From the NCBI RefSeq assembly GCF_006715225.1, contig NZ_VFMU01000001.1, positions 1,054,001-1,118,000 of the forward strand: a stretch of 64,000 bases of DNA, given 5' to 3'. Both the position numbers and the translations under genes were made by a program. This DNA comes from Arthrobacter sp. SLBN-112 (GTDB lineage Bacteria; Actinomycetota; Actinomycetes; Actinomycetales; Micrococcaceae). The notes under the pieces were generated by a model that ran no database searches, had not been told where the DNA came from, and saw nothing but the letters and a program-made list of their open reading frames with translations. This document shows positions 1,406 through 51,801 of the stretch, in pieces (the stretch's first letter is position 1; every line of letters starts with the position of its first letter).

Positions 1406-2299
1406 CTAGACGTCCCGCCGTTTCAGCAGGACTGCGGCGAGCAATACGGGGATGACCACCCAGCCGCCGAGGACCAGCGCCGCCTGCCAGGCTTCCAGTG
1501 TGTCGGGAACGTGCTGGGCGGCCGTCAGCGGCTCAACGGTGTTGCCCGGCAGGTACTTCCGGGCCTCCTTGAAGAAGTCCCCGGGGATGAGCTGGAAGGC
1601 GATGGGCGCCACAAAGAAGATGCCCACCAGGCTCATGATGCCGCCGGCGGAATTCCTGATCAGCGTGCCGAGCGCCATGCCGATGGCGGCGACGGCTGCC
1701 ACGTAGATGCTGTTGACCAACAGGAGCTTCAGGGACTGTGAACTGCCAAGATCCAGAGTGAGCCCGTAGTTGTCCAGGATGGGCACGGCCACCAGCCCCG
1801 CCACCCAGGTGGACACGGCAGTGACCACGAACGATGTCACCATGACCACCACGAGCTTTGCCGCGAACGCAGGCAGCCTCCTGGGCACGGCGGCGAAGGT
1901 GGACCGCGCCATCCCGGTGGTGAATTCCGAACTCATGAGGAGCACGCCGAGGGACCCAAGGATCAGCTGGGCGAAGGCGATGCCGGAGGTGGGCACGCTG
2001 ACGGCAAGGTCGCCGCCCTGCGATGCCATTCGGGCCGCGGCCTGCGGATCCCGCGTAGCGGCGTCGGCGAACTGGCCGGTCCCCCATGCGGACAGGGCAC
2101 CGAAACCGACCATGACCACCACGGTGGAAGCGAGCAGGACCAGCGTGGAAAGGAGGCTGCGGAACTTGATGACTTCCGAGTTCAGCACCCGGAGGAACGT
2201 GGGGCCGGGCAGGGCGCGGCCCCCGTTGCGGACGTTGCGGCCCCCGGCGGATGCTGCAGGTTCGGGCGGGGACGTGGATTCAGTGGCCATTGCGTTCAT
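1406..2299 (-). CDS. ABC-2 type transporter permease
   Basis: This 297-residue membrane protein has a charged, Pro/Ala-rich N-terminus (about 45 residues) followed by about six hydrophobic segments, including one near residues 50-72 and a final one just before the C-terminal LLKRRDV. The segments VINFxS-like FLRVLNSEVIKFRS and EFTTGMARSTFAAVPRR are typical of ABC-2 permeases that pair with DrrA/NatA-type ATPases. Its ATG overlaps the TAA of the upstream ATPase gene by one base (TAATG), so translation is probably coupled. It probably forms the membrane half of a small exporter (drug, lipid or ion); the substrate cannot be told from sequence. A start at the fourth codon (ATG at 2290) is also possible. 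Confidence 0.85.
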   Translation of the reverse strand: MNAMATESTSPPEPAASAGGRNVRNGGRALPGPTFLRVLNSEVIKFRSLLSTLVLLASTVVVMVGFGALSAWGTGQFADAATRDPQAAARMASQGGDLAVSVPTSGIAFAQLILGSLGVLLMSSEFTTGMARSTFAAVPRRLPAFAAKLVVVMVTSFVVTAVSTWVAGLVAVPILDNYGLTLDLGSSQSLKLLLVNSIYVAAVAAIGMALGTLIRNSAGGIMSLVGIFFVAPIAFQLIPGDFFKEARKYLPGNTVEPLTAAQHVPDTLEAWQAALVLGGWVVIPVLLAAVLLKRRDV

Positions 2300-3222
2300 T
2301 ACTTGCTGACCTCCGCAGCGGGAAGGGAGTGGTATTCGACGTCGTCCTTTGTCAGTTCCATGTAGGCCTCCTCGAGGCTGGCGACGAGCGGCGTGAGTTC
2401 GTAGATCATGACCTGGTTTTCCAGGGCGGCTGCCGCGATGGTTCTGGGCTCCAGGCCCGTCACTTCAAGCATTTCCCGTTCCGGGACGTCGATGGATGCT
2501 CCCCGTGCGGCAAGAAGCTGGTGGAGCCGGCCAGGCTCGTCCGTGCGGACGCGGACCCGGGCCTGGCCCTTGCCCGTGATGATGTCGCGGATGGGTGCGT
2601 CGGCAATCACGCGGCCGCGTCCAATGACGATCAGGTGGTCCGCGGTCTGCGCCATCTCGCTCATCAAGTGGCTGGAAAGGAACACCGTGCGTCCCTGCCC
2701 CGCGAGGTAGCGGACCAGGTTCCGCACCCAGACCACACCTTCCGGGTCCAGGCCGTTCACGGGTTCGTCGAGGATGAGGGTCTGCGGGTCCCCCAGCAGG
2801 GCCGCCGCAATGCCCAGCCGCTGGCCCATTCCCAGGGAGAAGCCGCCGGCCTTCTTGCGTGCCACGGCGTCCAGCCCCGTCATTTCAATGACCTCATGCA
2901 CCCGGGACTTGGGGATGCTGTGTGTGGCAGCCATGGCCAGCAGGTGGTTGTAGGCGCTGCGGCTGGTGTGCACGGCCTTGGCGTCCAGCAGTGCACCCAC
3001 TTCGCGCAGGGGTGCCTTGTGCCTGACGTAAGGGAGGCCGTTCACGGTGACAGATCCCGACGTCGGCCGGTCCAGTCCCATGATCATCCGCATGGTGGTG
3101 GACTTTCCTGCGCCGTTGGGGCCCAGGAAGCCGGTTACTTGCCCTGCCCGGACTGTAAAGCTGACACCGGCCACGGCGGTTTTGGCGCCGTATACCTTTG
3201 TCAGCCCTTTTGCCTCGATCAT
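2299..3222 (-). CDS. ABC transporter ATP-binding protein (DrrA/NatA-like)
   Basis: This is a 307-residue ATPase with Walker A GPNGAGKST (residues 34-42), signature FSLGMGQR (128-135) and Walker B TLILDEP (148-154), followed by a C-terminal extension of about 90 residues typical of DrrA/CcmA-like exporters. It energises the permease encoded immediately downstream, whose ATG overlaps this stop. The start is an ATG with AAAGGAT about 8 bases upstream. The 147 bp before the next minus-strand gene probably hold the operon promoter. The signature reads LGMGQ rather than LSGGQ, which is common in this subfamily. Confidence 0.9.
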   Translation of the reverse strand: MIEAKGLTKVYGAKTAVAGVSFTVRAGQVTGFLGPNGAGKSTTMRMIMGLDRPTSGSVTVNGLPYVRHKAPLREVGALLDAKAVHTSRSAYNHLLAMAATHSIPKSRVHEVIEMTGLDAVARKKAGGFSLGMGQRLGIAAALLGDPQTLILDEPVNGLDPEGVVWVRNLVRYLAGQGRTVFLSSHLMSEMAQTADHLIVIGRGRVIADAPIRDIITGKGQARVRVRTDEPGRLHQLLAARGASIDVPEREMLEVTGLEPRTIAAAALENQVMIYELTPLVASLEEAYMELTKDDVEYHSLPAAEVSK

Positions 3223-3369
3223 GGAGAATCCTTTGCATCGCAGCGCGCGGCTGCGGACGGTGGTTGGTGGGTGTTCACGCCCTACGCTACCGACGCCGGG
3301 CCAGGTTTTCCCCGGAATCAGGGATGATTCAGGGGAGAATCAGGGTTCGACTCCTGCCGCCGCGACTGG

Positions 3370-4866
3370 TCAGCGGCGCGGTGAGTAGTACGTCAGGGCC
3401 CGCGGCCGGATCCGGTAGGCCACACTGCGCACTCCCGCCAGCGCTTCTCCATCCACTGCCAGCGCCATGGGTGCGCCGCCGGCGTCAATCCTGACCTCCG
3501 CGGCCTCCCGCAGATGGGTGATGCGGGAACTTGCAACCGTGCCTGTCAGCACGGACCACAGCAGCCGCACCCGCGCGAAGGATTCATCGGCGGTAATCAT
3601 CCGCACATCCAGCATCCCGTCATCCATCACCGGCCGGAAAAGAGGCGCATGGTCCCGGGGGTAAAACCGGCCCCGGCCCAGATAGGCGATCCACACCTTG
3701 TGCACCACTCCGTCCACGGACAGGGTGATGGGGGTGCCCGCGGCAAAGGTCCTGAACATCGCCACGACGCCGGCCAACGGCTTCCCCAGCGCCGGCTGCA
3801 GGTGCTCCCGCCGCCGCACGAAGTTCGGATACAGGCCGATGCTTGAGGTGTTGAGCATAACCAGTTCGGATACCTCGGGGCTTCCCGCCAGGCCACGTTC
3901 CGCGGTTACGACGCCGATGTCAGCCAGGGCCGCATCACCTTTGCCCGCCGCTTCCACAGCATCCTTCAGGCTTCCCGTCCCCGCGTCGCGGGCAAAGTGG
4001 TTCAGGGTTCCCCCCGGCAGGACCAGCAGGGGAATGGAACGTTCGACAGCGGCTGCGGCCGCCGCTCCGACGGTTCCGTCCCCGCCCCACACGCCAAGGG
4101 CACGGGTGCCGGGGAAATCAGCGGTGGCGGCAATCCGCTGCAGCAGGTCCTCATCCGGCTGCACGGTGTTTATATGTGCCTTGGGAAATACTTCTTTGAG
4201 CGCGGAGGCGGTCTCCTCCTTGAACGATCCACCCAGAGTGTTGACCACGATGCTCAAGCCCTCGCCGTCCGGCAGTTCGGGTGCACTGGTCCAGGCCCTC
4301 GTGGTCTGAGGTATCGGCGGACGGACCGGCCACCAATGCCGGGTCACCAGGGCGGCGCCGGCACCAAGCGCTGAACCGAAGAGGACGTCCGAGGGCCAGT
4401 GGGCGCCGGTGTGCACTCTTGAATAGGCAACTCCCAGGGCGGCGGGAGCCAGGGCGGCACCCACGGCGGGGCGAACAAGGCCGGCGCCGACGGCAAACGC
4501 TATGGCAGACGCTGAATGCCCCGACGGCATGGACGAGCTCGTGGGCTGTGGATGCACGAAGCGGAAGACCGGCAGGTGCTCGGGGAGCGGGCGGGTCCGG
4601 GGGAGCAGGGTTTTGAACACCACGTTGGTGACCGCGGAGGCCACCCCTTGGGCAAGCAGGCCATGCAGTGCGGCCCTCCGCGTCTTGCCTGGAAAGAGCG
4701 CCAGGAGCGCCGCCGCCCCCATCCACAATTTGCCCTTGTTGGCTGAGGCTGAAAGCCGGCGGAAGAAGACGTCGTGGTTGCCGCCCGGCAGGTTGGATAC
4801 ATGCTTGAGAAGGTATCTATCGAGGCGGCTGATCCAGCTTCGTCCCCGCGGCCTTGCGCTTTGCAT
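3370..4866 (-). CDS. PAP2 phosphatase - diacylglycerol kinase fusion protein
   Basis: This is a 498-residue two-domain protein. The N-terminal half is a PAP2 (type 2 phosphatidic acid phosphatase) domain with the three signature motifs: KTLLPRTRP (85-93), PSGH (114-117) and SRVHTGAHWPSD (149-160). The C-terminal half from about residue 204 is a diacylglycerol/sphingosine kinase catalytic domain with GGDGTVG (261-267) and PGGTLNHFARD (284-294). The pairing suggests one polypeptide handling phosphorylation and dephosphorylation of lipids, perhaps undecaprenyl phosphate, phosphatidate or diacylglycerol; the substrate is inferred only. The PAP2 half contains membrane segments. Similar fusions are known in Actinobacteria. 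The stop is 147 bp from the ABC ATPase start, with no clear hairpin. Confidence 0.9.
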   Translation of the reverse strand: MQSARPRGRSWISRLDRYLLKHVSNLPGGNHDVFFRRLSASANKGKLWMGAAALLALFPGKTRRAALHGLLAQGVASAVTNVVFKTLLPRTRPLPEHLPVFRFVHPQPTSSSMPSGHSASAIAFAVGAGLVRPAVGAALAPAALGVAYSRVHTGAHWPSDVLFGSALGAGAALVTRHWWPVRPPIPQTTRAWTSAPELPDGEGLSIVVNTLGGSFKEETASALKEVFPKAHINTVQPDEDLLQRIAATADFPGTRALGVWGGDGTVGAAAAAAVERSIPLLVLPGGTLNHFARDAGTGSLKDAVEAAGKGDAALADIGVVTAERGLAGSPEVSELVMLNTSSIGLYPNFVRRREHLQPALGKPLAGVVAMFRTFAAGTPITLSVDGVVHKVWIAYLGRGRFYPRDHAPLFRPVMDDGMLDVRMITADESFARVRLLWSVLTGTVASSRITHLREAAEVRIDAGGAPMALAVDGEALAGVRSVAYRIRPRALTYYSPRR

Positions 4867-22523: not shown

Positions 22524-22850
22524 ATGAGCAACGCTAAAGATGTAACTGACGCAAGTTTCGGCACCGACGTCCTGTCCGCCGAGAAGCCGGTAATCGTCGA
22601 TTTCTGGGCCGAATGGTGCGGCCCTTGCCGTAAGCTCGGCCCCATCCTTGACGAGATCTCCGTCGAGTACAGCGAAAAGGTGGACGTCGTCAAGGTCAAT
22701 GTCGACGACAACCCCGCCATTGCCGCAGAATATGGAATCACCTCCATCCCGGCCGTGTACCTCTTCCAGGGCGGCGAAGTGAAGAGCACTGTGATCGGTG
22801 CCAAGCCGAAGCAGTTCTTTGAGAAGGAATTCTCTGACGTTCTTTCGTAA
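22524..22850 (+). CDS. trxA: Thioredoxin
   Basis: This is a 108-residue thioredoxin with the canonical WCGPC active site (residues 31-35) and the conserved cis-proline segment GITSIPAVYLFQGG. The ATG at 22524 is chosen because the fold begins there; the frame opens earlier inside trxB. It is a general disulfide reductant for ribonucleotide reductase, peroxidases and others. It is co-transcribed with trxB and ends 40 bp before a strong terminator. Confidence 0.95.
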   Translation: MSNAKDVTDASFGTDVLSAEKPVIVDFWAEWCGPCRKLGPILDEISVEYSEKVDVVKVNVDDNPAIAAEYGITSIPAVYLFQGGEVKSTVIGAKPKQFFEKEFSDVLS

Positions 22851-22890
22851 CTGACTGCCCCAGTCACAAGCAGGGGAGTTACCGATATGA

Positions 22891-22922
22891 GAATGGCCAC
22901 CGCCTTTCAGCGGTGGCCATTC
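22891..22922 (+). terminator. Intrinsic terminator of trxBA
   Basis: GAATGGCCACCGC (22891-22903) pairs perfectly with GCGGTGGCCATTC (22910-22922) around a 6-base loop and is followed by TTGTTT. It marks the left border of the gene-free parS region. Confidence 0.88.
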
Positions 22923-22960
22923 TTGTTTAAGCCGGGCAGGGTGCGCTGGTTTCATCCTGA

Positions 22961-22976
22961 TGTTTCACGTGAAACT
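22961..22976. other. parS: parS site 1 (15/16)
   Basis: TGTTTCACGTGAAACT differs from the consensus TGTTTCACGTGAAACA only in the last base. It lies just after the trxA terminator. Confidence 0.9.
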
Positions 22977-23247
22977 CCTGCGGTACCTATCCTTTTCTAT
23001 AGTTTGAATTGTCAGCACAATAACGCCTCGATTAGGTGCCCGATAGGCGCTGCTCCGTAAGAACGATGGGAGTGTCGTCTCCGGTATCCCCCCACTACGC
23101 AGTCGAAGGATCTGCTAAGGGCGCGGGTGACTCTGATTTTCGGACTGGAACCTGATGCAGCTTCACCCCCCCTGTGCTACCAGGTGCCTTTTCCCTGGAG
23201 CTCCGAGTTTTCCAAAATAGCGAAGGGGAGGACCACAGGTCCGCCGT

Positions 23248-23263
23248 GGTTTCACGTGAAACA
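23248..23263. other. parS: parS site 2 (15/16)
   Basis: GGTTTCACGTGAAACA, one outer-base mismatch. The 14-base palindromic core GTTTCACGTGAAAC is intact. Confidence 0.9.
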
Positions 23264-24028
23264 GGATTGCTCTGAATCAAATCGGAGCCTAGCCCGCCAG
23301 CCCAGCAGCTCGTCCGCACGCACTGTATGACTCTCGCGAATGCATAGGAACACAACATGGTGGAACGCACGGCGGCGCGAGATCAGCGGTATGCACCATG
23401 CTTTCGACTGACTAGTCGCAGGTTTCCGTGCGCTTGCAGGCGGTGGCTCAACACTACAAACGAATCGTCACCGAAAGAGTAGGTGGTTGCCCTCACCGGC
23501 AGGCCCACTGTCAGGGGCAACGGGCGCGTGGTGTGGAGGATTTCGGCTGGGGCACCGCCAGAACGCCTGTACAGCTTCTATCCGCTTTGTAAGGATGCCT
23601 TGGATGTCCATGGCCTGCACCAGCGCCGCATCCTCGTCTGGGAGACGCGGGAGGATTGAAGATCTGTGACCGGGTAATTCTCCCTAGGGGCGTCTGTGCT
23701 GCTGCGCGGCGGCCTGCCGCGTAAGCACACTTCAACCTGTACCCGGCTGGATGCAGCCAGTACTTTGTCTAAGACCCACGCCACGCCACACGTCGGTTCT
23801 CCCAACGGATTTGGAGGTTGTCCTATGAGCTCCTGCGTGGCTGGAAGCCGCTACCTGGCGGGCACCAGACATGAACAATCCTTCGTGACATAAGCGGCGA
23901 AGGCATCGATTTCCGCGCACGACGGACCACACGGTTGCAGATATCCCTAGGGGAGTTTTTCCTCCCATCGTTGAATGTGTGCATCTTGACGTTTGCCCAT
24001 TCACGACGGCCCCAACGGGTACCGCTAC

Positions 24029-24044
24029 TGTTTCACGTGAAACA
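24029..24044. other. parS: parS site 3 (perfect)
   Basis: TGTTTCACGTGAAACA, identical to consensus. It forms a tight pair with the next site, 24 bp centre to centre. Confidence 0.95.
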
Positions 24045-24052
24045 GAGGGGCA

Positions 24053-24068
24053 TGTTTCACGTGAAACG
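24053..24068. other. parS: parS site 4 (15/16)
   Basis: TGTTTCACGTGAAACG, one outer mismatch. Only 8 bp separate it from site 3. Confidence 0.93.
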
Positions 24069-24623
24069 CGACTCAAGGAATCGCATTCGCCAGGCTGGAG
24101 CTGCTTTGAGGCCTCTCCTCAGCAATTCAACCCCAGACTTCTACGCCAACAGACCATCGGTCACGTGGAAAAAGGATCCGCCGTCTGAGCTGTTATGAAT
24201 CCGACGACCAAGGGTAGCGTCTGCAGCATCGGCTGGATAAGGAAGAAGTAGATTTCACCTTCTGCTATCCGTAGGAGGCGTGCACCTAGCGCCGTAGGAG
24301 CTGCGCGACTGCCACGACGATGTGCTGGCTGGGCTCAGGCTGGATCAACCCACTCCACAGCACTAGGTCGCCACAGCACTAGGCCTTCGGGAGATGCAAG
24401 CCGCGCCGGACGCCGCTTGCCCGGAAGGGGTTTGAAGTCCGGTATGAGATCGCACTCTCGGTTCAGGAGCATGGCCAGGCCTTCCCCCAATGGATGGAGC
24501 CTTGCGCTTGTCATAGTCGAGAGGACCGGTCGGCCTCCTCGCGGGCAAGAGCGCGCCAACAAGTATCCTGTAGCTGGCCGGCGACCAGTTCCTGCGGCAC
24601 CGCCTAGGGAGGAGATCGTGGCT

Positions 24624-24679
24624 TTGTCCACACTGTTATCCACACCCGGATGGATCGCCTATCCACAGACTTATCCACA
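24624..24679. promoter_or_regulatory. Group of four direct DnaA boxes in the parS region
   Basis: Boxes TTGTCCACA (24624), TTATCCACA (24636), CTATCCACA (24659) and TTATCCACA (24671) all point the same way. They form two pairs, each with a 12-bp period (3-bp gap). Two are perfect matches. The site is about 10 kb from oriC and between parS sites 4 and 5. Confidence 0.75.
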
Positions 24680-24880
24680 CCCCTCTTGGGACGCCAGGAT
24701 CGATGTCCACGTCGGAGTTTCAGAGTAAAACGCCACAGCAGGTATCGTTACGTCGCGTGTGACAAGCTGTGCGCGACAGCCGGGGACCGGGATGCGCTGT
24801 TAGCTTGCGCTGGGTCGCCGCTTTTCACACTTCTTCGGTTGCTTATCGTAGACCCACCAGCGTCATGCGCGGCCCTGACG

Positions 24881-24896
24881 TGTTTCACGTGAAACA
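24881..24896. other. parS: parS site 5 (perfect)
   Basis: TGTTTCACGTGAAACA, identical to consensus, between the two DnaA-box groups of the gene-free region. Confidence 0.95.
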
Positions 24897-25002
24897 ATGC
24901 GTGCGCAAGGGTAGCGCGAATACCTCGCGAACAAAAGTGCAGGCCCGGCGGTTTGGAACGAAGCACCGCCCCCGATTCACACATCGCTCGTTATACCCAA
25001 TC

Positions 25003-25035
25003 TTCTCCACAGCGTTATCCACAGGGATATCCACC
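25003..25035. promoter_or_regulatory. Group of direct DnaA boxes in the parS region
   Basis: TTCTCCACA (25003), perfect TTATCCACA (25015) and weak ATATCCACC (25027) repeat at an exact 12-bp spacing, the same period as the group at 24624. Confidence 0.65.
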
Positions 25036-25686
25036 GGTGAGATTGCCCACGTGCAGAGCGCCTGTTCGTTGATCCGGTAACTCAGAAGCGCAGGTCCACC
25101 GGCCTCCTCCGTCCTACGCTGACATTCCTTAGCCCATCTCAGGGCCCCCTCGGCGCGCTCGTTGCGTTCCAGTCGCGGCCTCATGAAGTCCCTGCTGGCC
25201 TTGGGTCAGCAATGAGAAGCCTACTAAATTCGCGGCCGCCGCCACTTACGGTACAAAATCCTTACCCAGCTTCTCCATGCGCTGTCAGCCTCGCAGTGCG
25301 CTACGGCGGTAAATAGGTCCCGATCGAGCGGAGTAACGCCACAACTACGCCCTCACCAATCACGTGCGCGTGTGAGCGCACCTACTTCGGAGAGGAAGGG
25401 TACGCTGCAGGGTGAGCGGAACCTCTGGCGTTGAGCGATTGTCGATCTCACAGTGGTCAGCCCGGCTGCCTGCCCTAACTCACGGGGTGTTTAGGGGGCA
25501 ACTAGATCTTGGGGGAGACGAGGGACCGGCCATAGGACGATCGAGCATTGGGATGGAAAAGAGCACGACAATCGCAGATAGCCGGCAGGCCGAACCCGTG
25601 ATGGAGCAGACAGTGCCGTTATTGCTGACGGACCCTGGCTGGTAAGCATCTGCACGGTCATGGGAAGGAGCATGCTCAGCAGGAGC

Positions 25687-25702
25687 TGTTTCACGTGAAA
25701 CA
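25687..25702. other. parS: parS site 6 (perfect)
   Basis: TGTTTCACGTGAAACA, identical to consensus; 85 bp from site 7. Confidence 0.95.
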
Positions 25703-25771
25703 CTGGACCCGGTCGCGAAGATTTTGCCGCCCCGTCGAGGATCCTACGGGCAGCGAAATCCCCGAGCACGC

Positions 25772-25787
25772 AGTTTCACGTGAAACA
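25772..25787. other. parS: parS site 7 (15/16)
   Basis: AGTTTCACGTGAAACA, first base differs from consensus. Confidence 0.9.
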
Positions 25788-26453
25788 TACGAGCTCCTCC
25801 CGATGGTTCTGCAGACTCGTGGGTTAGGGTTCAACACGAGTCACAACCTGAGCGCCGATATTGCGACCGTGTTATAGGCACCAGGACTGTGTTCGAGCCC
25901 GACAGAACGGCCTAGCAATGGCGCTGGGCATTTCGGATACAGAAGATAACGGACTGGCTAACTACTTGCAGCCGCGAGACCCAAAGTACCGGTGTTAGCG
26001 GGTCAACCAATGACTTAGGGGCTGCCCATGGGACTGCCGAAAGCCACGCCCTAGGGAACGCATGCGACTCCCATACAAGACCCCTTCCTGCTTCACGCCC
26101 TCCTCGTAAGGGTTGCGGCCCCATAGCTACCCTGTAGAGCCCTCCCATACGACCGTTACCCGCGGAGCGCGCAAGAGTCAGGTGTTGCCTCCCCGCGAGC
26201 GGATAGACCGTAGGAGCACCAGGTGCACCTAGGCGCGCTGCCGTGCGTGAGGGCGGAATCCGGGGCAGGCAGCACCTACTGTGGCACCAGATCGGGCAAT
26301 GCTCCCACCTCACCCAAACACGCGGTATCTCAGGAAGCGGATCCACTTCCGTCTATTCGCGCCTGCGCATTCTTGATAACTGAGAGTGATGGTAGGGGAC
26401 TCACCTGGCAGATCCCTTCTCGGCCCCTCCGCAGGACTGAATACCCTTGCCTT

Positions 26454-26469
26454 GGTTTCACGTGAAACG
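26454..26469. other. parS: parS site 8 (14/16)
   Basis: GGTTTCACGTGAAACG, both outer bases differ but the 14-base palindromic core is intact. It is the closest intergenic site to parB. Confidence 0.85.
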
Positions 26470-26870
26470 AAGACAGCTAGACGTTTACGGGGTTCCCCAA
26501 CTACAACAAAGCATTGGGAACATCGCAAAATGCAGCGCGGTCTGCTGCAATGGAAAAGCACTCATAACTAAATAGGGGATGCTGGCGGTCGGAACATGAA
26601 CCGGGGCAGGGGTGAAGTCAGTAGGATTGGCCGCAGGAGCGGCGCTGTATGCAGCTCCAAGGCGCTCCGCTGCAATACGACCGTTCATCCGGCCATGGCG
26701 ACGCGGCGCCACGGAAGGCTGTACGCGAACTTCAGAACGGACCCGATTCCAAATATAGGAGACATTCGCCCTTCCAAGACGGGCGCCGGCACCACGAGAC
26801 GGCACGATCCGGATGCTACAAGCAAAATCGGCTTCACCGGGATGGACGTAGAAGCTCAACAGGAAAAGAA

Positions 26871-26901
26871 AAAGGCCCGATTCGTGATGAATCGGGCCTT
26901 T
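26871..26901 (-). terminator. Intrinsic terminator of parAB
   Basis: AAAGGCCCGATTC (26871-26883) pairs with GAATCGGGCCTTT (26889-26901). On the minus strand it follows the parB stop by about 10 bp and runs into TTTTTCTTTT. It forms the right border of the gene-free region. Confidence 0.88.
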
Positions 26902-26911
26902 CGCTGCTGGA

Positions 26912-28210
26912 TCAGTTGGTCGAACCAGGGGCAAGGACATCCATGATTCGGTTCAGGTCCTCCACGCTGGCGAACTCGATGCTGACTTTGCCCTTCCTAA
27001 CCCCGAGGGAGATCTTGACATTCGTATCAAGGCGATCGGAGAGCGACGACGCAAGGTAGTCCAGGCGCTCATGCCGTGCACCGGGCCGCGGAATGTTGTT
27101 CTTTGCCGGCTTGGCAGGATCCTGATAGAGGGTCACAGCCTCCTCCGTGGCGCGGACAGACATCCCCTCAGCAACAATCTTCTGCGCAAGACGCTCCATG
27201 GCGGCAGCATCGGGAAGGGACAGCAGAGCCCTGGCGTGGCCTGCGGACAGCACACCGGCAGCAACACGCCGCTGCACCAGCGGGGGGAGCTTCAACAGGC
27301 GAAGCGTATTGGACACTTGGGGACGGGAACGCCCGATGCGGTCCGCCAACTGCTCGTGGGTGGTCCCGAAGTCCTCCAAGAGCTGCTGGTAAGCAGCAGC
27401 CTCTTCAAGCGGATTCAGCTGGCTGCGGTGGAGGTTCTCAAGCAGGGCATCCCGGAGGAGATTGTCATCCGTCGTGTCGCGGATGATGGCAGGGATGGTG
27501 TCCAGACCCGCTGCCTGCACGGCGCGCCACCGGCGCTCACCCATGACAAGCTCGTACGGCTCACTATCGTTTTCGGTTGATGTCCGAACAACAATCGGCT
27601 GGAGGACGCCGATCTCCCGCACAGAGTGGACGAGTTCAGCCATGTCGTCTTCATCGAAGACATTTCGGGGCTGTTTGCGGTTCGGATGGATGTCGGACAC
27701 CGGGATCTCCGCGAACCGCGCACCGGGAACTTCCACCAGCTCAACACCGGAGTCAGCCCGTGTGTCCGCAGGGACGGTCTTGGCTGGCTTCGGGCTGTCT
27801 ACGGCAGTAGCCTCCGTCACTTCGGTAGCAGCCGCTGTCTCCACGACAGGGGAGGGTCCAGGCTTCTCATTGGAGCCCGCGGAAGTCTTCCTGGCAGGAG
27901 TCTTCTTCGTCGGAGCCTCATCAGCTGCAGGAGCGGACTTGGTAGCGTTACTACTCTTGTCCGGATCCGAATTGGCAGAAGCTGCCTTAGCTGCAGACGG
28001 TCGCATCCCCGGGGCAGCGGCGTCCTTGTCCTGTACCCCGGCGGTGTCGGCTGCAGGTTGTTCCAACGGCTCGGTCTTTTTCCGGCCTTCCGGAAAAAAC
28101 AGATCCACGGGTCGGGATACCGCACCACCGTTGCCGGCCCCATTGGTTGCGGGGGAACTCGGAATCAGCGCGCCAAGACCGCGGCCTAGGCCCCGTCGCT
28201 TCTCGCTCAT
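26912..28210 (-). CDS. parB: ParB chromosome-partitioning CTPase
   Basis: This 432-residue protein binds parS and spreads as a CTP-dependent clamp. After a long low-complexity N-terminus (about 165 residues, Ala/Thr/Lys-rich, longer than in many ParB proteins), the ParB/Srx domain shows [19 protein letters not shown], the CTP-binding GERRWRA and the [14 protein letters not shown] motif. A helix-turn-helix follows ([19 protein letters not shown]), then a C-terminal dimerisation region with [20 protein letters not shown] start with GGAGGG upstream. It is 66 bp downstream of parA, and its targets lie in the adjacent gene-free region. Confidence 0.95.
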
Positions 28211-28276: not shown

Positions 28277-29359
28277 TTAGCGTTCCGCTATTTCAGCAGC
28301 GGCTTCCAGGTAGGACAGTGCACCACTCGAGGACGGATCGTATGTCATGACCGTCTGCTGGTAGCTGGGCGCCTCTGAAATGCGTACCGACCGCGGCACC
28401 ACGGCCGAAAGAACCTGATCTGGGAAGTGCTGCCGTACCTCCGCAGCGACTTGTGCCGCAAGATTGGTGCGGCCGTCATACATCGTCAGAAGGATCGTGG
28501 AAACAACGAGGTCCGCGTTGAGGTGCTTCTGGATCATCTCTATGTTCTTGAGGAGCTGGCTCAGGCCTTCCAAGGCGTAGTACTCGCACTGGATGGGAAT
28601 CAGCACTTCACTGGCCGCACAGAAAGCATTGACCGTCAGCAGGCCCAGGCTGGGCGGGCAGTCAATGAACACATAATCCAGGCGCTCTTCGCCGTTCTTC
28701 TCGCGGCTCTTCGCATAGACATCGATGGCGCGGCGCAACCGCTGTTCGCGGGCCACGAGCGACACCAGTTCGATCTCGGCACCTGCAAGGTGGATGGTGG
28801 CCGGGGCGCAGATGAGCTTGCCTATGTCCGGGCACGGGGCGACCACATCGGCCAACGGGACGTCATTGATCAAAACGTCGTAGATGCTGTCCACATCGGC
28901 ATGGTGTTCGATTCCCAGCGCAGTGGAAGCGTTGCCCTGCGGGTCGATATCGATAACCAGGACGTTCAGTCCAGCCGCCGCCAGTGCCGCAGCAATGTTC
29001 ACGGTAGTGGTGGTCTTGCCGACGCCGCCCTTTTGATTTGAAACGGTGAAGATCCGAGTCTTTTCGGGCCGGGGCAGCTGGCGGCCCATCAGGCGCTCAC
29101 GGCGCTTCGTCTCGTGCGCCAGCTCGCGCGCAATGGGGCTCGAGTCATCGATGGCATCAATAACGTTCGAACGACCAGCCGAGGTTGTTTCACGTGAAAC
29201 CGCGCCAGCGGAAGCGGCAGAACCAACCGTCTTAGGGTGATTTCCGCCCCGTCCTGGAGCCATAGCGGTGCCCGCCAACCCCGACCCAGCGACAGATCGT
29301 GCCGACCCCAAAGACACAAACGGTGGGATCCGTTGTGCGGAGGCTTCACTACTGGTCAC
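28277..29359 (-). CDS. parA: ParA chromosome-partitioning ATPase
   Basis: This 360-residue deviant Walker ATPase drives origin segregation with ParB. Walker A is KGGVGKTTT (110-118), and VLVIDIDPQGNAS, DYVFIDCPPSLG and the C-terminal VPRSVRISEAPS complete the family. It has an N-terminal extension of about 100 residues that is disordered. Residues 54-58 (VSRET) are encoded by a parS site, so the extension overlaps a centromere element. GTG start. The gap of about 90 bp to rsmG holds a small hairpin, so it may have its own promoter. Confidence 0.95.
   Translation of the reverse strand: MTSSEASAQRIPPFVSLGSARSVAGSGLAGTAMAPGRGGNHPKTVGSAASAGAVSRETTSAGRSNVIDAIDDSSPIARELAHETKRRERLMGRQLPRPEKTRIFTVSNQKGGVGKTTTTVNIAAALAAAGLNVLVIDIDPQGNASTALGIEHHADVDSIYDVLINDVPLADVVAPCPDIGKLICAPATIHLAGAEIELVSLVAREQRLRRAIDVYAKSREKNGEERLDYVFIDCPPSLGLLTVNAFCAASEVLIPIQCEYYALEGLSQLLKNIEMIQKHLNADLVVSTILLTMYDGRTNLAAQVAAEVRQHFPDQVLSAVVPRSVRISEAPSYQQTVMTYDPSSSGALSYLEAAAEIAER
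29186..29201. other. parS: parS site 9 inside parA (15/16)
   Basis: TGTTTCACGTGAAACC lies within the parA coding sequence (codons for V-S-R-E-T). It is the site closest to dnaA, about 4 kb away. Confidence 0.9.
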
Positions 29360-34530: not shown

Positions 34531-35066
34531 ATCCACATCAACCCCGCTGCTCTATACCTTATTAACAGGGGCATGTGGATAAGCCTGTGGATAGTTAAGG
34601 GGACAAGCGCGGTTAATGGGCTTAAAACCCTTAAGGCGTCTGTGGATCGTTAAAAACCGGCCTTGACGTTGTCCCCATCCACACCCTGTTTAAAACCCAG
34701 TAACGCACACTTCGTGAACAGGGCTTAACCGCGGAACCGTGGGGCAGGACCGGGTTATCCACAGTTTCCACAGCAGTTATTAACACTACGAATCCCAAAA
34801 AATTGAATTCCCTCAAACAACAAGATCGATGCGGGTGTTCGACGAGGGGGCCTGCCGGCCCCAAAGCGGCCGGGCCGGATCATGGGGGATGGGTTAATCC
34901 AGGATCTTCCGGCTAAGCTGTCAGCAGCGCTCCCATCCCTGGGTTTTTGTGTGGTTACGGTCCGAACAGACCATGCACCAGCCAGGGTGCGCCCAACTTC
35001 TTCCGGAGTTTCCCCTCGAAATTCCCGGGTTTACATGGCAGCAGCAATGAAAGGCGGCACCCTTCC
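34531..35066. other. oriC: Replication origin oriC (dnaA-dnaN intergenic)
   Basis: This 536-bp region is the known location of actinobacterial oriC. It has DnaA boxes TGTGGATAA (34574) and TGTGGATAG (34586) at a 12-bp spacing, TGTGGATCG (34641), CCATCCACA (34675) and TTATCCACA (34755). A/T-rich stretches (for example around 34555-34665 and 34780-34830) could melt. The last 150 bp before the dnaN GTG hold the dnaN promoter. Confidence 0.85.
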
Positions 35067-49996: not shown

Positions 49997-50039
49997 GATG
50001 CCCCCGACACCAGACGGTGCCGGGGGCATCGTCGTTTTT
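49997..50039 (+). terminator. Intrinsic terminator after rhomboid gene
   Basis: GATGCCCCCG (49997-50006) pairs with CGGGGGCATC (50021-50030), with an inner CACC/GGTG stem, followed by GTCGTTTTT. Confidence 0.88.
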
Positions 50040-50442
50040 CCACAGGCATTATCCACAGTGTTGGTAACTTACACGGCTGTAGTTCCCATGCTGGTCTCCC
50101 CATTCCCAGCTTGCACCCGGCCCTTTCGGCCGGAAACCTGACCGCGTTCTCCACATCTGTGGATAACCTGTGGGGATATCGCTGTGTGAAAGTGGATAAG
50201 CAGGAGGATTTCCCGCTTTCTGTGGATAAGGGCACTCCAAACAGCCTCCGACGGCTGGTTTCCCTGTCCCGCCGGCATGTTATCGACACCCTTATGCACA
50301 GTGTTAATAACTGACAGTTGTGTAGTTTGGGCGCTGGAAATCCCGCAGGAGTAGGCTGCAGCGGCGGTAATGGAACGATTTCCACGGCTTTACCCACAGT
50401 TGTGGATAACTTGTGGGTATTGCGATGTTGGTAAGTGGATAA
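50036..50442. promoter_or_regulatory. Extra DnaA-box cluster about 16 kb from oriC
   Basis: Perfect boxes (TTATCCACA, either strand) lie at 50049, 50158, 50221 and 50401. Variants are at 50036, 50147, 50191, 50292, 50390 and 50434. Several form inverted pairs with a 2-bp gap: TTCTCCACA then TGTGGATAA (50147/50158), and TTACCCACA then TGTGGATAA (50390/50401). It is not a gene; a DnaA-titration or replication-control site is inferred. Confidence 0.7.
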
Positions 50443-50512
50443 GTGGCCGGCCAGCCCTCGACTCCTGCCTATGATGGTTGCCTGCCAAGCCTTTCAAGCG
50501 ACAAGGATCCCC

Positions 50513-50977
50513 GTGGGCGTCACCGAGCACCTGTACCTGGACAAACAGCATCCGGCCCTTTGGAAGGCGATCAGCGGCCTGGGCCTCAAGGTGCAGGAAG
50601 CCGCAGAGGAAGCCGGAATCGGCCTGGGTCTGTTGGAACTCCTCAACGTCCGGATCTCGCAGATCAACGGCTGCGCCTACTGCCTGGACCTCCATGTGCG
50701 AAAGGCGGTCGAGGCAGGGGAAAGGGCGCAGCGGCTGGCGGTCCTGCCGGCATGGCGGGACACCGCACTCTTCACCGGCAAGGAGCGGGCAGCACTGGCA
50801 CTGGTGGAGAGCATCACGGAGCTCCCGGGCCAGGAGTCACGCGAGCAGGCCGAGGCCGCGGCGCGGGAATGCCTGACGGTAGAGGAATTTTCAGCAGTGA
50901 GTTGGGTTGCGGTGACCATGAACGCGTTCAACCGGGTCTCCATCACCAGCCACCACCCCGTGAAGCGGGATCGCTGA
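50513..50977 (+). CDS. Carboxymuconolactone decarboxylase (AhpD-like) family protein
   Basis: GTG at 50513, preceded by AAGGA, gives 154 residues. The CMD/AhpD redox centre INGCAYCLDLH (Cys54, Cys57, His61) is intact, suggesting thiol peroxidase-type or alkylhydroperoxidase-like activity. An earlier ATG at 50471 is possible. It is flanked by DnaA-box clusters on both sides; a link to replication is not implied. Confidence 0.85.
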   Translation: MGVTEHLYLDKQHPALWKAISGLGLKVQEAAEEAGIGLGLLELLNVRISQINGCAYCLDLHVRKAVEAGERAQRLAVLPAWRDTALFTGKERAALALVESITELPGQESREQAEAAARECLTVEEFSAVSWVAVTMNAFNRVSITSHHPVKRDR

Positions 50978-51025
50978 CAGCGCTCCGAGTCTTCGGCAGG
51001 AGGTCACAGAGTTCGGGCCGCCTAT

Positions 51026-51151
51026 TTATCCACAGGTATTCCACACTGTTAATAACGGCATTTGCCCGGCCGGTTAACCGGATCGGCCTTGCCCGGCGGG
51101 CCAGCCGCTCCATCCGGAGACCCTTGGCGAGCTTTTCCACACTGTGGATAA
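51026..51151. promoter_or_regulatory. DnaA-box cluster between CMD gene and tag
   Basis: TTATCCACA (51026), TATTCCACA (51037), TTTTCCACA (51133) and TGTGGATAA (51143). The last two are an inverted pair separated by one base. The cluster lies in the 218-bp gap between convergent genes. Confidence 0.65.
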
Positions 51152-51195: not shown

Positions 51196-51801
51196 CTATC
51201 CGGGCCAGATGCCGGACGATCCACGCCGGTGGCTGTCCACAAGGTGGGTATCCACTATCCCCACAGCCTCCATCAGGGCAAACATGGTGGTGGGTCCCAC
51301 AAAGGAGAACCCGCGCTTCCGCAGTGCCTTGGACAAGGCAACCGACTCTGCGGACTGGGTGGGGATCTCGGCGGCCACCCTGGGCCGCGGGGTGCTGCCC
51401 GGCGCAAAGCCCCACACAAAGTCCACCAACCCGCCGTCGTTCCTAAGCTCCAGCGTGGCCTGGGCATTCCTGATCGTGGCAAGGATCTTCAGCCGGTTCC
51501 TGATGATGCCCGGATCCTGCATCAGCCGCTCCACGTCCGTGCTGCCAAAGAGCGCCACAGCCTCCGGATCGAACCCTGCGAAGGCGGCACGGAACGCCGG
51601 ACGCTTACGCAGGATGGTGGCCCATGACAGTCCTGCCTGGAAGCCCTCCAGGCAGATGCGCTCGTACAGGCCCTGCTCGTCAGTGACAGGCAGGCCCCAC
51701 TCCTGGTCGTAGTAGCTCCGCATGAGCGGATCCGAGGCAGCCCACGCCGGCCGGGCCAGGCCGTCCTCGCCAATAATTACGCCGGCGGAATCGGGAGCCA
51801 G
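51196..51801 (-). CDS. tag: DNA-3-methyladenine glycosylase I (Tag-like), probable CTG start
   Basis: It should excise 3-methyladenine from DNA. The family N-terminus (here PAWAASDPLMRSYYDQEWG) is encoded upstream of the first ATG (51723). The only well-placed start is CTG at 51801, 6 bases after AAGGAGG, giving about 201 residues; no ATG, GTG or TTG fits. FQAGLSWATILRKR and FSFVGPTTMFALMEAVG fit Tag. Against E. coli Tag zinc ligands Cys4, His17, His175 and Cys179, only His175 seems kept (Pro, Tyr, Ser elsewhere). Activity without zinc is unproved. Confidence 0.8.
   Translation of the reverse strand: MAPDSAGVIIGEDGLARPAWAASDPLMRSYYDQEWGLPVTDEQGLYERICLEGFQAGLSWATILRKRPAFRAAFAGFDPEAVALFGSTDVERLMQDPGIIRNRLKILATIRNAQATLELRNDGGLVDFVWGFAPGSTPRPRVAAEIPTQSAESVALSKALRKRGFSFVGPTTMFALMEAVGIVDTHLVDSHRRGSSGIWPG

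Follow-up and report, generated by a model that had tools for sequence, protein, structure and literature searches.

The region described here lies in a 64,000-nucleotide stretch of the chromosome of Arthrobacter sp. SLBN-112 (hereafter the window), where about 4 kb of DNA between the convergent genes trxA and parB combines parS sites with DnaA boxes and carries no recognisable gene. Open reading frame (ORF), Pfam, codon-usage, composition and hairpin analyses place this gap at positions 22926–26868 of the window. A motif search located eight exact copies of the parS core GTTTCACGTGAAAC in it, at 22962–22975, 23249–23262, 24030–24043 and 24054–24067 (a close pair), 24882–24895, 25688–25701, 25773–25786 and 26455–26468. 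The fifth copy, hereafter the core parS, stands between two arrays of DnaA boxes, 133 bp before the central box of the second array. Over the whole genome, which is complete at 4,404,006 bases, the exact motif occurs nine times, always within the same 6.2 kb, and the ninth copy (29187–29200) is found inside parA. Shuffled windows contained 0.13 parS on average even with two mismatches permitted, and the eight copies that a first-pass annotation had read from the letters alone were all recovered. All eight are exact in the closest relative (G107), in which the flanking DNA has mostly diverged. Several parS sites near oriC and adjoining parAB are the arrangement of a ParABS centromere. In relatives with large gaps, the parS total of the locus is mostly one more than the count in the gap, and the additional site may match the one in parA of the window.

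Seven DnaA boxes, all on the plus strand, form the two arrays with a pitch of 12 bp. Array 1 (24624–24679) is composed of TTGTCCACA at 24624, TTATCCACA at 24636, CTATCCACA at 24659 and TTATCCACA at 24671, in steps of 12, 23 and 12 bp; array 2 (25003–25035) consists of TTCTCCACA at 25003, TTATCCACA at 25015 and ATATCCACC at 25027, in two steps of 12 bp. Five boxes (24624, 24636, 24671, 25003 and 25015) match the pattern TTnTCCACA, while those at 24659 and 25027 were read by eye and fall outside it. The earlier estimate of about seven boxes at a regular 12-bp period thus holds, with one step of 23 bp. The exact tandem pair TTnTCCACA-n3-TTnTCCACA is found twice in the genome, both times inside the gap; permitting one mismatch adds two pairs, a third one inside the gap and an opposite-strand one in the dnaA–dnaN intergenic sequence, the presumed oriC. 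Fifteen other genomes of the genus, drawn from those with DNA matches to the gap, contain 54 tandem pairs when up to one mismatch is tolerated. The gap accounts for 37 of them and oriC for 15 (assigned by a distance of 9.5–10.6 kb and the opposite strand, one pair per genome); two lie about 16 kb beyond oriC, and none elsewhere. Across the genus, such pairs are present in 203 of 204 genomes, at least two of them in 202, and the single genome lacking them is 63% complete; a reversed control pattern gave one match each in 5 of the 204. The specificity of the arrays is high, and across the genus not absolute, because at least five isolated tandem sites occur elsewhere among the matches listed. 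DnaA boxes outside oriC are enriched over chance, which is characteristic of DnaA-box clusters.

Nine further TTnTCCACA boxes, some of them head to head, lie about 16 kb beyond oriC (50036–50409 and 51026–51151 of the window), where they surround an ORF of the carboxymuconolactone decarboxylase family (50435–50977) and adjoin a methyladenine glycosylase gene (51196–51723). Imperfect tandem sites about 16 kb from the oriC pair were also observed in G012, G013, G016, G018–G022 and G027. Three DnaA boxes within 450 bp, 22 kb to the left of the window (G000:C1:1031813–1032259), represent a possible fourth cluster.

Both neighbouring genes read into the gap. To the left is trxA (22524–22850, plus strand), encoding a thioredoxin (Pfam PF00085), and to the right parB (26912–28210, minus strand), whose product carries N-terminal, helix-turn-helix and dimerisation domains (PF02195, PF17762 and PF23552); parA (28277–29359, minus strand; Pfam AAA_31) lies beyond parB. 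By gene context, oriC is the dnaA–dnaN intergenic sequence (34531–34946), with its tandem box pair at 34574–34594 on the minus strand, about 10 kb from the gap. As the first-pass annotation had claimed, terminators bound the gap on both sides: one hairpin stands 3' of trxA (22887–22926, plus strand; fold −31.4 kcal/mol, z −7.3) and another 3' of parB (26870–26902, minus strand; −24.5 kcal/mol, z −5.1). Terminator-like sites in the region number four against 3.4 by chance, so that their count is not raised.

None of the 15 gap ORFs of at least 80 aa has a Pfam match above the cut-off, the single weak match reaching E 0.025 and 15.4 bits against a cut-off of 27. Three-base periodicity was not found in the gap, and its k-mer use is closer to random than that of any sampled equal-length stretch of the remaining window, while still above full shuffles. 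The best codon-usage score in the gap is −0.3 (58 aa), where the maximum of 20 shuffles is −1.3 and the eighth-best flanking ORF scores 71. Hidden genes are rejected by these three analyses, in line with the first-pass statement that no credible gene is present. A non-coding RNA was also rejected, as the gap gave no Rfam match, and so was a mobile origin, as searches of plasmid and phage collections returned no match; sigma-70-like promoter sites number zero against 1.4 expected. The G+C content of 0.587 is lower than in the remaining window (0.646), as had been noted in the first reading. GC skew was uneven across the window and was not used. The gap had also been described as having many CTAG tetramers: the contrast with the flanks is genuine, the excess is not, since 13 are seen against 14.5 expected, compared with 23 against 195 in the remaining, largely coding window. 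The CTAG content of the gap needs no special cause, because the gap is at chance level and the coding remainder is depleted.

A DNA search with the gap against 206 genomes of the genus gave matches in 71 of the 205 besides its own; G107 matches throughout at 81%, and the 70 others by short islands, mostly arrays or parS. The gaps for comparison were trxA–parB intervals longer than 3 kb that contain five or more exact parS and one or more TTnTCCACA; the minimum length and minimum parS number of the set therefore follow in part from the selection itself. Both parB and trxA are present in 93 of 100 loci. With L031 excluded, 42 loci, the window and G107 among them, pass these limits; 16 of the 42 were picked for DNA matches to the gap and hence favour arrays, and two are duplicates (L096 of L028, L108 of L016). 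L031, with one box and outside the clade described below, is counted in the 43 gaps of the k-mer, codon-usage and inter-array analyses and excluded from the 42 gaps of the layout, AT-content and spacing analyses.

In the core alignment of 39 genomes (L020 excluded), columns conserved at 80% or more are restricted to the boxes and one parS, with single scattered columns at 60–80%. Every one of the 25 most widely shared 10-mers of the 43 gaps derives from parS or boxes. When these were masked, four 10-mers, from the trxA terminator (common to up to 16 of 43 gaps) or from degenerate parS, beat five Markov simulations; those of a weak box variant and of the parB terminator occur in 10–11 gaps (up to 10 for the terminator), within the simulated maxima of 7–11, and no masked 8-mer was outstanding over the 43 gaps. 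The tandem pair (at most one mismatch) is present in 42 of 43 gaps, and both arrays, sought at distances of 250–460 bp, in 40. The exceptions are L031, L007 with one array, and L008, in which an ORF separates the arrays (G030, with an inter-array distance of 1,851 bp as in L008, may be the same genome). Codon-usage scoring of the 43 gaps revealed a gene-like ORF in two, namely the rve-type transposase of L008 (33.9) and an ORF without Pfam match in L016 (25.3); the other 41, among them the window, score at most 6.5, and seven of the 41, again including the window, lie slightly above the maximum of their own 20 shuffles. Across the set, the flanking ORF ranked eighth scores 34–96. Two of the checks named in the first-pass annotation, codon-usage gene finding and comparison of the syntenic gap, therefore came out in its favour: no gene-like ORF is present in the window or in 41 of 43 gaps, and sites and layout are kept, while the intervening DNA is usually unalignable. 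The combined layout of parS and DnaA boxes is genuine, and the clade preserves it with limited variation in spacing; on the strength of this conservation, a role for both ParB and DnaA at the gap is well supported.

The 42 gaps are 4.0–9.1 kb long (median 5.1) and hold 5–11 parS (median 8), with a Spearman correlation of 0.54 between length and number. Their parS are spaced somewhat more evenly than random (coefficient of variation, CV, 0.61 against 0.82), and array 2 begins at 0.55 of the gap length (standard deviation, s.d., 0.05); this layout analysis and that of AT content used anchors of which three were later corrected. In close relatives, the parS coordinates are nearly unchanged although blastn matches only about 7% of the gap: counted from the start of the gap, they are 111, 398, 1179, 1203, 2031, 2837, 2922 and 3604 in the window, and 105, 413, 1170, 1202, 2011, 2892 and 3616 in L095. 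The distance between the arrays has a CV of 0.066 in 40 of the 43 gaps, against 0.205 for gap length, within the search range given above.

The spacing between the core parS and array 2 is narrow as well. For this analysis the anchors of L101, L003 and L012 were set anew with ranges chosen by hand, which left L101 with a weak score. Of the 42 gaps, 34 have a parS 109–134 bp upstream of the central box in array 2 (mean 125, s.d. 6.3); the distances to the neighbouring parS are far more variable, with means of 1064 bp on one side and 1139 bp on the other (s.d. 363 and 331, respectively). Twenty of the 34 distances are 117–124 bp and 12 are 130–134 bp, with one each at 109 and 127; they cluster near 121 and 133 bp with an s.d. 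of about 1.4 within these post hoc ranges. Aligned over 3,865 bases, the window and G107 show 17.3% divergence and 49 insertion or deletion (indel) events, or about 0.07 indels for each substitution. At that rate, 110 bp of saturated sequence would be expected to meet several indels, and the narrow range of distances suggests that the distance between core parS and array 2 is under selection, an argument weakened by shared ancestry and by the post hoc ranges. The difference of 11.5 bp between the two modes is close to one helical turn and to the 12-bp box pitch, and Rayleigh R has a broad peak at 12–12.5 bp (with the earlier anchors and few independent lineages); helical phasing of the core parS and array 2 is suggestive only.

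Between the window and G107, the gap has diverged by 17.3%, about as much as four-fold degenerate sites (17.8%), compared with 3.4% for the oriC intergenic sequence. A simple neutral clock fits this pair and was rejected, as in six other pairs the gap diverges faster than four-fold sites: at a four-fold divergence of 16.3%, the window and L095 have a gap identity of 0.52 (0.42 for the reversed control), and L099 and L107 differ by 30% in the gap and 13% at four-fold sites. Pairs with such fast turnover also include L070/L005. Constrained synonymous sites, gene recombination or fast gap turnover may explain this difference. These comparisons show that the bulk of the gap is, as judged by its divergence, without sequence constraint. 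Bacteria have a general deletion bias, and that the gap persists all the same is the chief reason for thinking that its length or emptiness serves a purpose.

On a tree of ParA and ParB from 98 rows, arrays are found in 44 rows and require two changes. A 43-row Arthrobacter/Pseudarthrobacter/Paenarthrobacter clade has them without exception, and so does Sinomonas (L020); L013 and L026, the only clade members outside the limits of the comparison set because their contigs end before trxA, have arrays too. Arrays were not found in the four-row group beside the clade (L024, L029, L030 and L033; the contig of L029 ends early). The tree is a quick one with long branches, and its deep order is unsure. 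Other Micrococcaceae, e.g., L034, L039, L040, L049, L052 and L054, have parS-bearing gaps with neither gene-like ORFs nor arrays, and L031 has a gap of the same sort (best codon-usage score 6); for this reason, the gap is probably older than the arrays. In L022 and L023 the parS-bearing gap contains an amidase gene, the interval is as short as 66–346 bp in several Rothia, a Kocuria, a Micrococcus and others, and further lineages have genes in it, such as an aminotransferase and a D-Ala-D-Ala ligase in L050. A distant lineage, Actinomyces bowdenii (L072), has nine parS in an 8-kb trxA–parB interval that also holds genes.

Based on these observations, we propose, with a probability of roughly 0.6, that the gap serves an Arthrobacter-type actinobacterium as its chromosomal centromere, in which ParB loads onto untranscribed DNA around a central DnaA-binding control element. 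The centromere part is supported by the nine parS within 6.2 kb and by the inward-reading flanking genes with strong hairpins, and the region is real, conserved and, on the comparative evidence, probably functional. The sites, their spacing, the lack of recognisable genes and their conservation can be read from the DNA directly; occupancy by ParB and DnaA, transcriptional silence and the direction of control we infer from them. ParB would enter DNA at the eight parS and slide through the gene-free zone fenced by terminators, and both arrays, some 10 kb away from oriC, would be filled by DnaA. In the manner of datA or DnaA-box clusters, the element might hold or inactivate DnaA, and so restrain or tune it near oriC. 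ParB loaded at the enclosed parS could then modify DnaA binding, in the manner of Vibrio cholerae rctA, and the next initiation would thereby be tied to the state of segregation. Direct contacts between ParB and DnaA are described for V. cholerae and Deinococcus in PMC7022226. A more far-reaching and still tentative version is that length, emptiness and site spacing are selected rather than sequence, such that random gene-free DNA would serve as a sequence-independent track for ParB clamps, with a rotationally phased DnaA–parS–DnaA complex at its centre as a two-way gate linking initiation of replication and segregation.

Several observations speak against this proposal. The enclosed parS is not universal, since in 5 of 42 gaps (L006, L012, L017, L105 and L106) the nearest parS is 80–91 bp downstream of array 2, outside the arrays, and another 3 lack one at the tested distances. 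A fixed distance between the arrays is not essential, given that in L008 they are 1.85 kb apart with the transposase ORF between them (gap coordinates 2254–4117). The tandem search returned a single array in L007, and the second array of Sinomonas (L020) is weak. The spacing statistics are inflated by shared ancestry and the choice of relatives, and the two spacing modes were defined after the data had been seen. The need for position is also questioned by Bacillus subtilis, in which, according to PMC7614844, ParA controls DnaA regardless of parS location.

Among known systems, the region appears most like rctA/parS2 of V. cholerae chromosome II and the datA-type DnaA-box clusters. As described in PMC4468827, rctA is an initiator-titration site near the origin with parS inside, where ParB2 counteracts titration. 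In the window, likewise, a parS is enclosed within a putative initiator-titration site near the origin. In V. cholerae, however, the initiator is RctB, whereas DnaA is proposed here, and that account describes one parS2 within rctA, in contrast to eight parS in a 4-kb gene-free region beside a dnaA–dnaN origin. The DnaA-box clusters of B. subtilis and Streptomyces coelicolor and the Escherichia coli datA site are presented in PMC4585315 as non-coding sequences outside oriC that restrain initiation; the region shares with them its non-coding DnaA boxes, while embedded parS are not described in that source. E. coli datA also needs a site for integration host factor (IHF) between its boxes; the likeness drawn here concerns the boxes. 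In Caulobacter crescentus, a DnaA site lies inside the centromere, at most 8 kb from the origin (Mera et al. 2014, as summarised in PMC4468827), again a DnaA site in a parS region near the origin; paired 12-bp arrays, a parS at fixed distance and a long gene-free zone are not described for it in that summary. Corynebacterium glutamicum resembles the window in having several mostly intergenic parS near oriC, namely ten, nine of them intergenic (PMC7083940), but these extend over 35 kb and lie 73 kb from oriC, and the word DnaA is absent from the main text of that paper. DnaA at a centromere is therefore already known from Caulobacter, and what is unusual here is the clear joint architecture of a parS centromere and extra-oriC DnaA boxes. 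In the open-access literature, which leaves subscription journals mostly uncovered, we found no report of a region with parS and DnaA boxes in Arthrobacter.

It is possible, albeit on balance doubtful, that parS and arrays simply share a quiet place, the arrays being an ordinary titration site of the datA or DnaA-box-cluster type in an early-replicated, gene-free parS region, with no working contact between ParB and DnaA. The arrays are indeed oriC-like and lie 9.5–10.6 kb from the oriC pair in 15 of 15 genomes, the third group of boxes (50036–51151) has no parS, and the two components are separable, as no array was found in parS-rich gaps of other Micrococcaceae. Mere neighbours would nevertheless not be expected to keep a parS so narrowly spaced from array 2 in 34 of 42 gaps when no column between the two reaches 80% conservation.

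The direction of control might instead be reversed, with DnaA acting on segregation, either because filaments on the arrays block or release ParB clamps at the enclosed parS or because they start centromere movement, as proposed for Caulobacter. There, the DnaA site of the parS region is required for DnaA-dependent partitioning, as reported in PMC4468827, and bound proteins stop ParB from sliding in vitro, as described in PMC9242446. According to the latter source, ParB can bypass such blocks through recruitment in trans, so that a strict barrier role of DnaA is uncertain. Furthermore, the seven other parS of the gap are outside the arrays and would load ParB freely, and in one lineage the nearest parS is itself outside them. 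We therefore regard this reversal as improbable.

The first-pass annotation had suggested a combined platform for segregation and initiation. The joint design endures on the evidence of its conservation; the initiation part is not supported. A second, auxiliary replication origin would explain tandem boxes of the oriC type, but no AT-rich unwinding element was found beside the boxes: the AT-richest 50 bp of the core have 46% GC, and those of the entire gap, close to trxA, 36%, compared with 30% at oriC. In addition, conservation of 80% or more is confined to boxes and parS and includes nothing AT-rich, and a dnaA–dnaN oriC is present about 10 kb away, which makes such an origin very unlikely; it is more probable that the gap regulates initiation, or is linked to it, than that replication starts there. 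Least credible of all is a decaying gene remnant or mobile-element scar with incidental parS, which the genes found at the same place elsewhere (L050, L022) might suggest, since protein searches with seven ORFs taken from intervals of this kind found nothing in 42 gaps, plasmid and phage collections gave no match, and the parS and array design is present in all members of the 43-row clade.

How the start of replication is coupled to the segregation of the origin is an open question in bacteria. If the proposed centromere with its DnaA-binding element is correct, this region would join the targets of ParB and DnaA in one compact, conserved and editable element, in which the spacing of boxes and parS could be changed without touching a recognisable gene. 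It would also be an unusual case in which kilobases of bacterial DNA are seemingly retained while their sequence is free to change.

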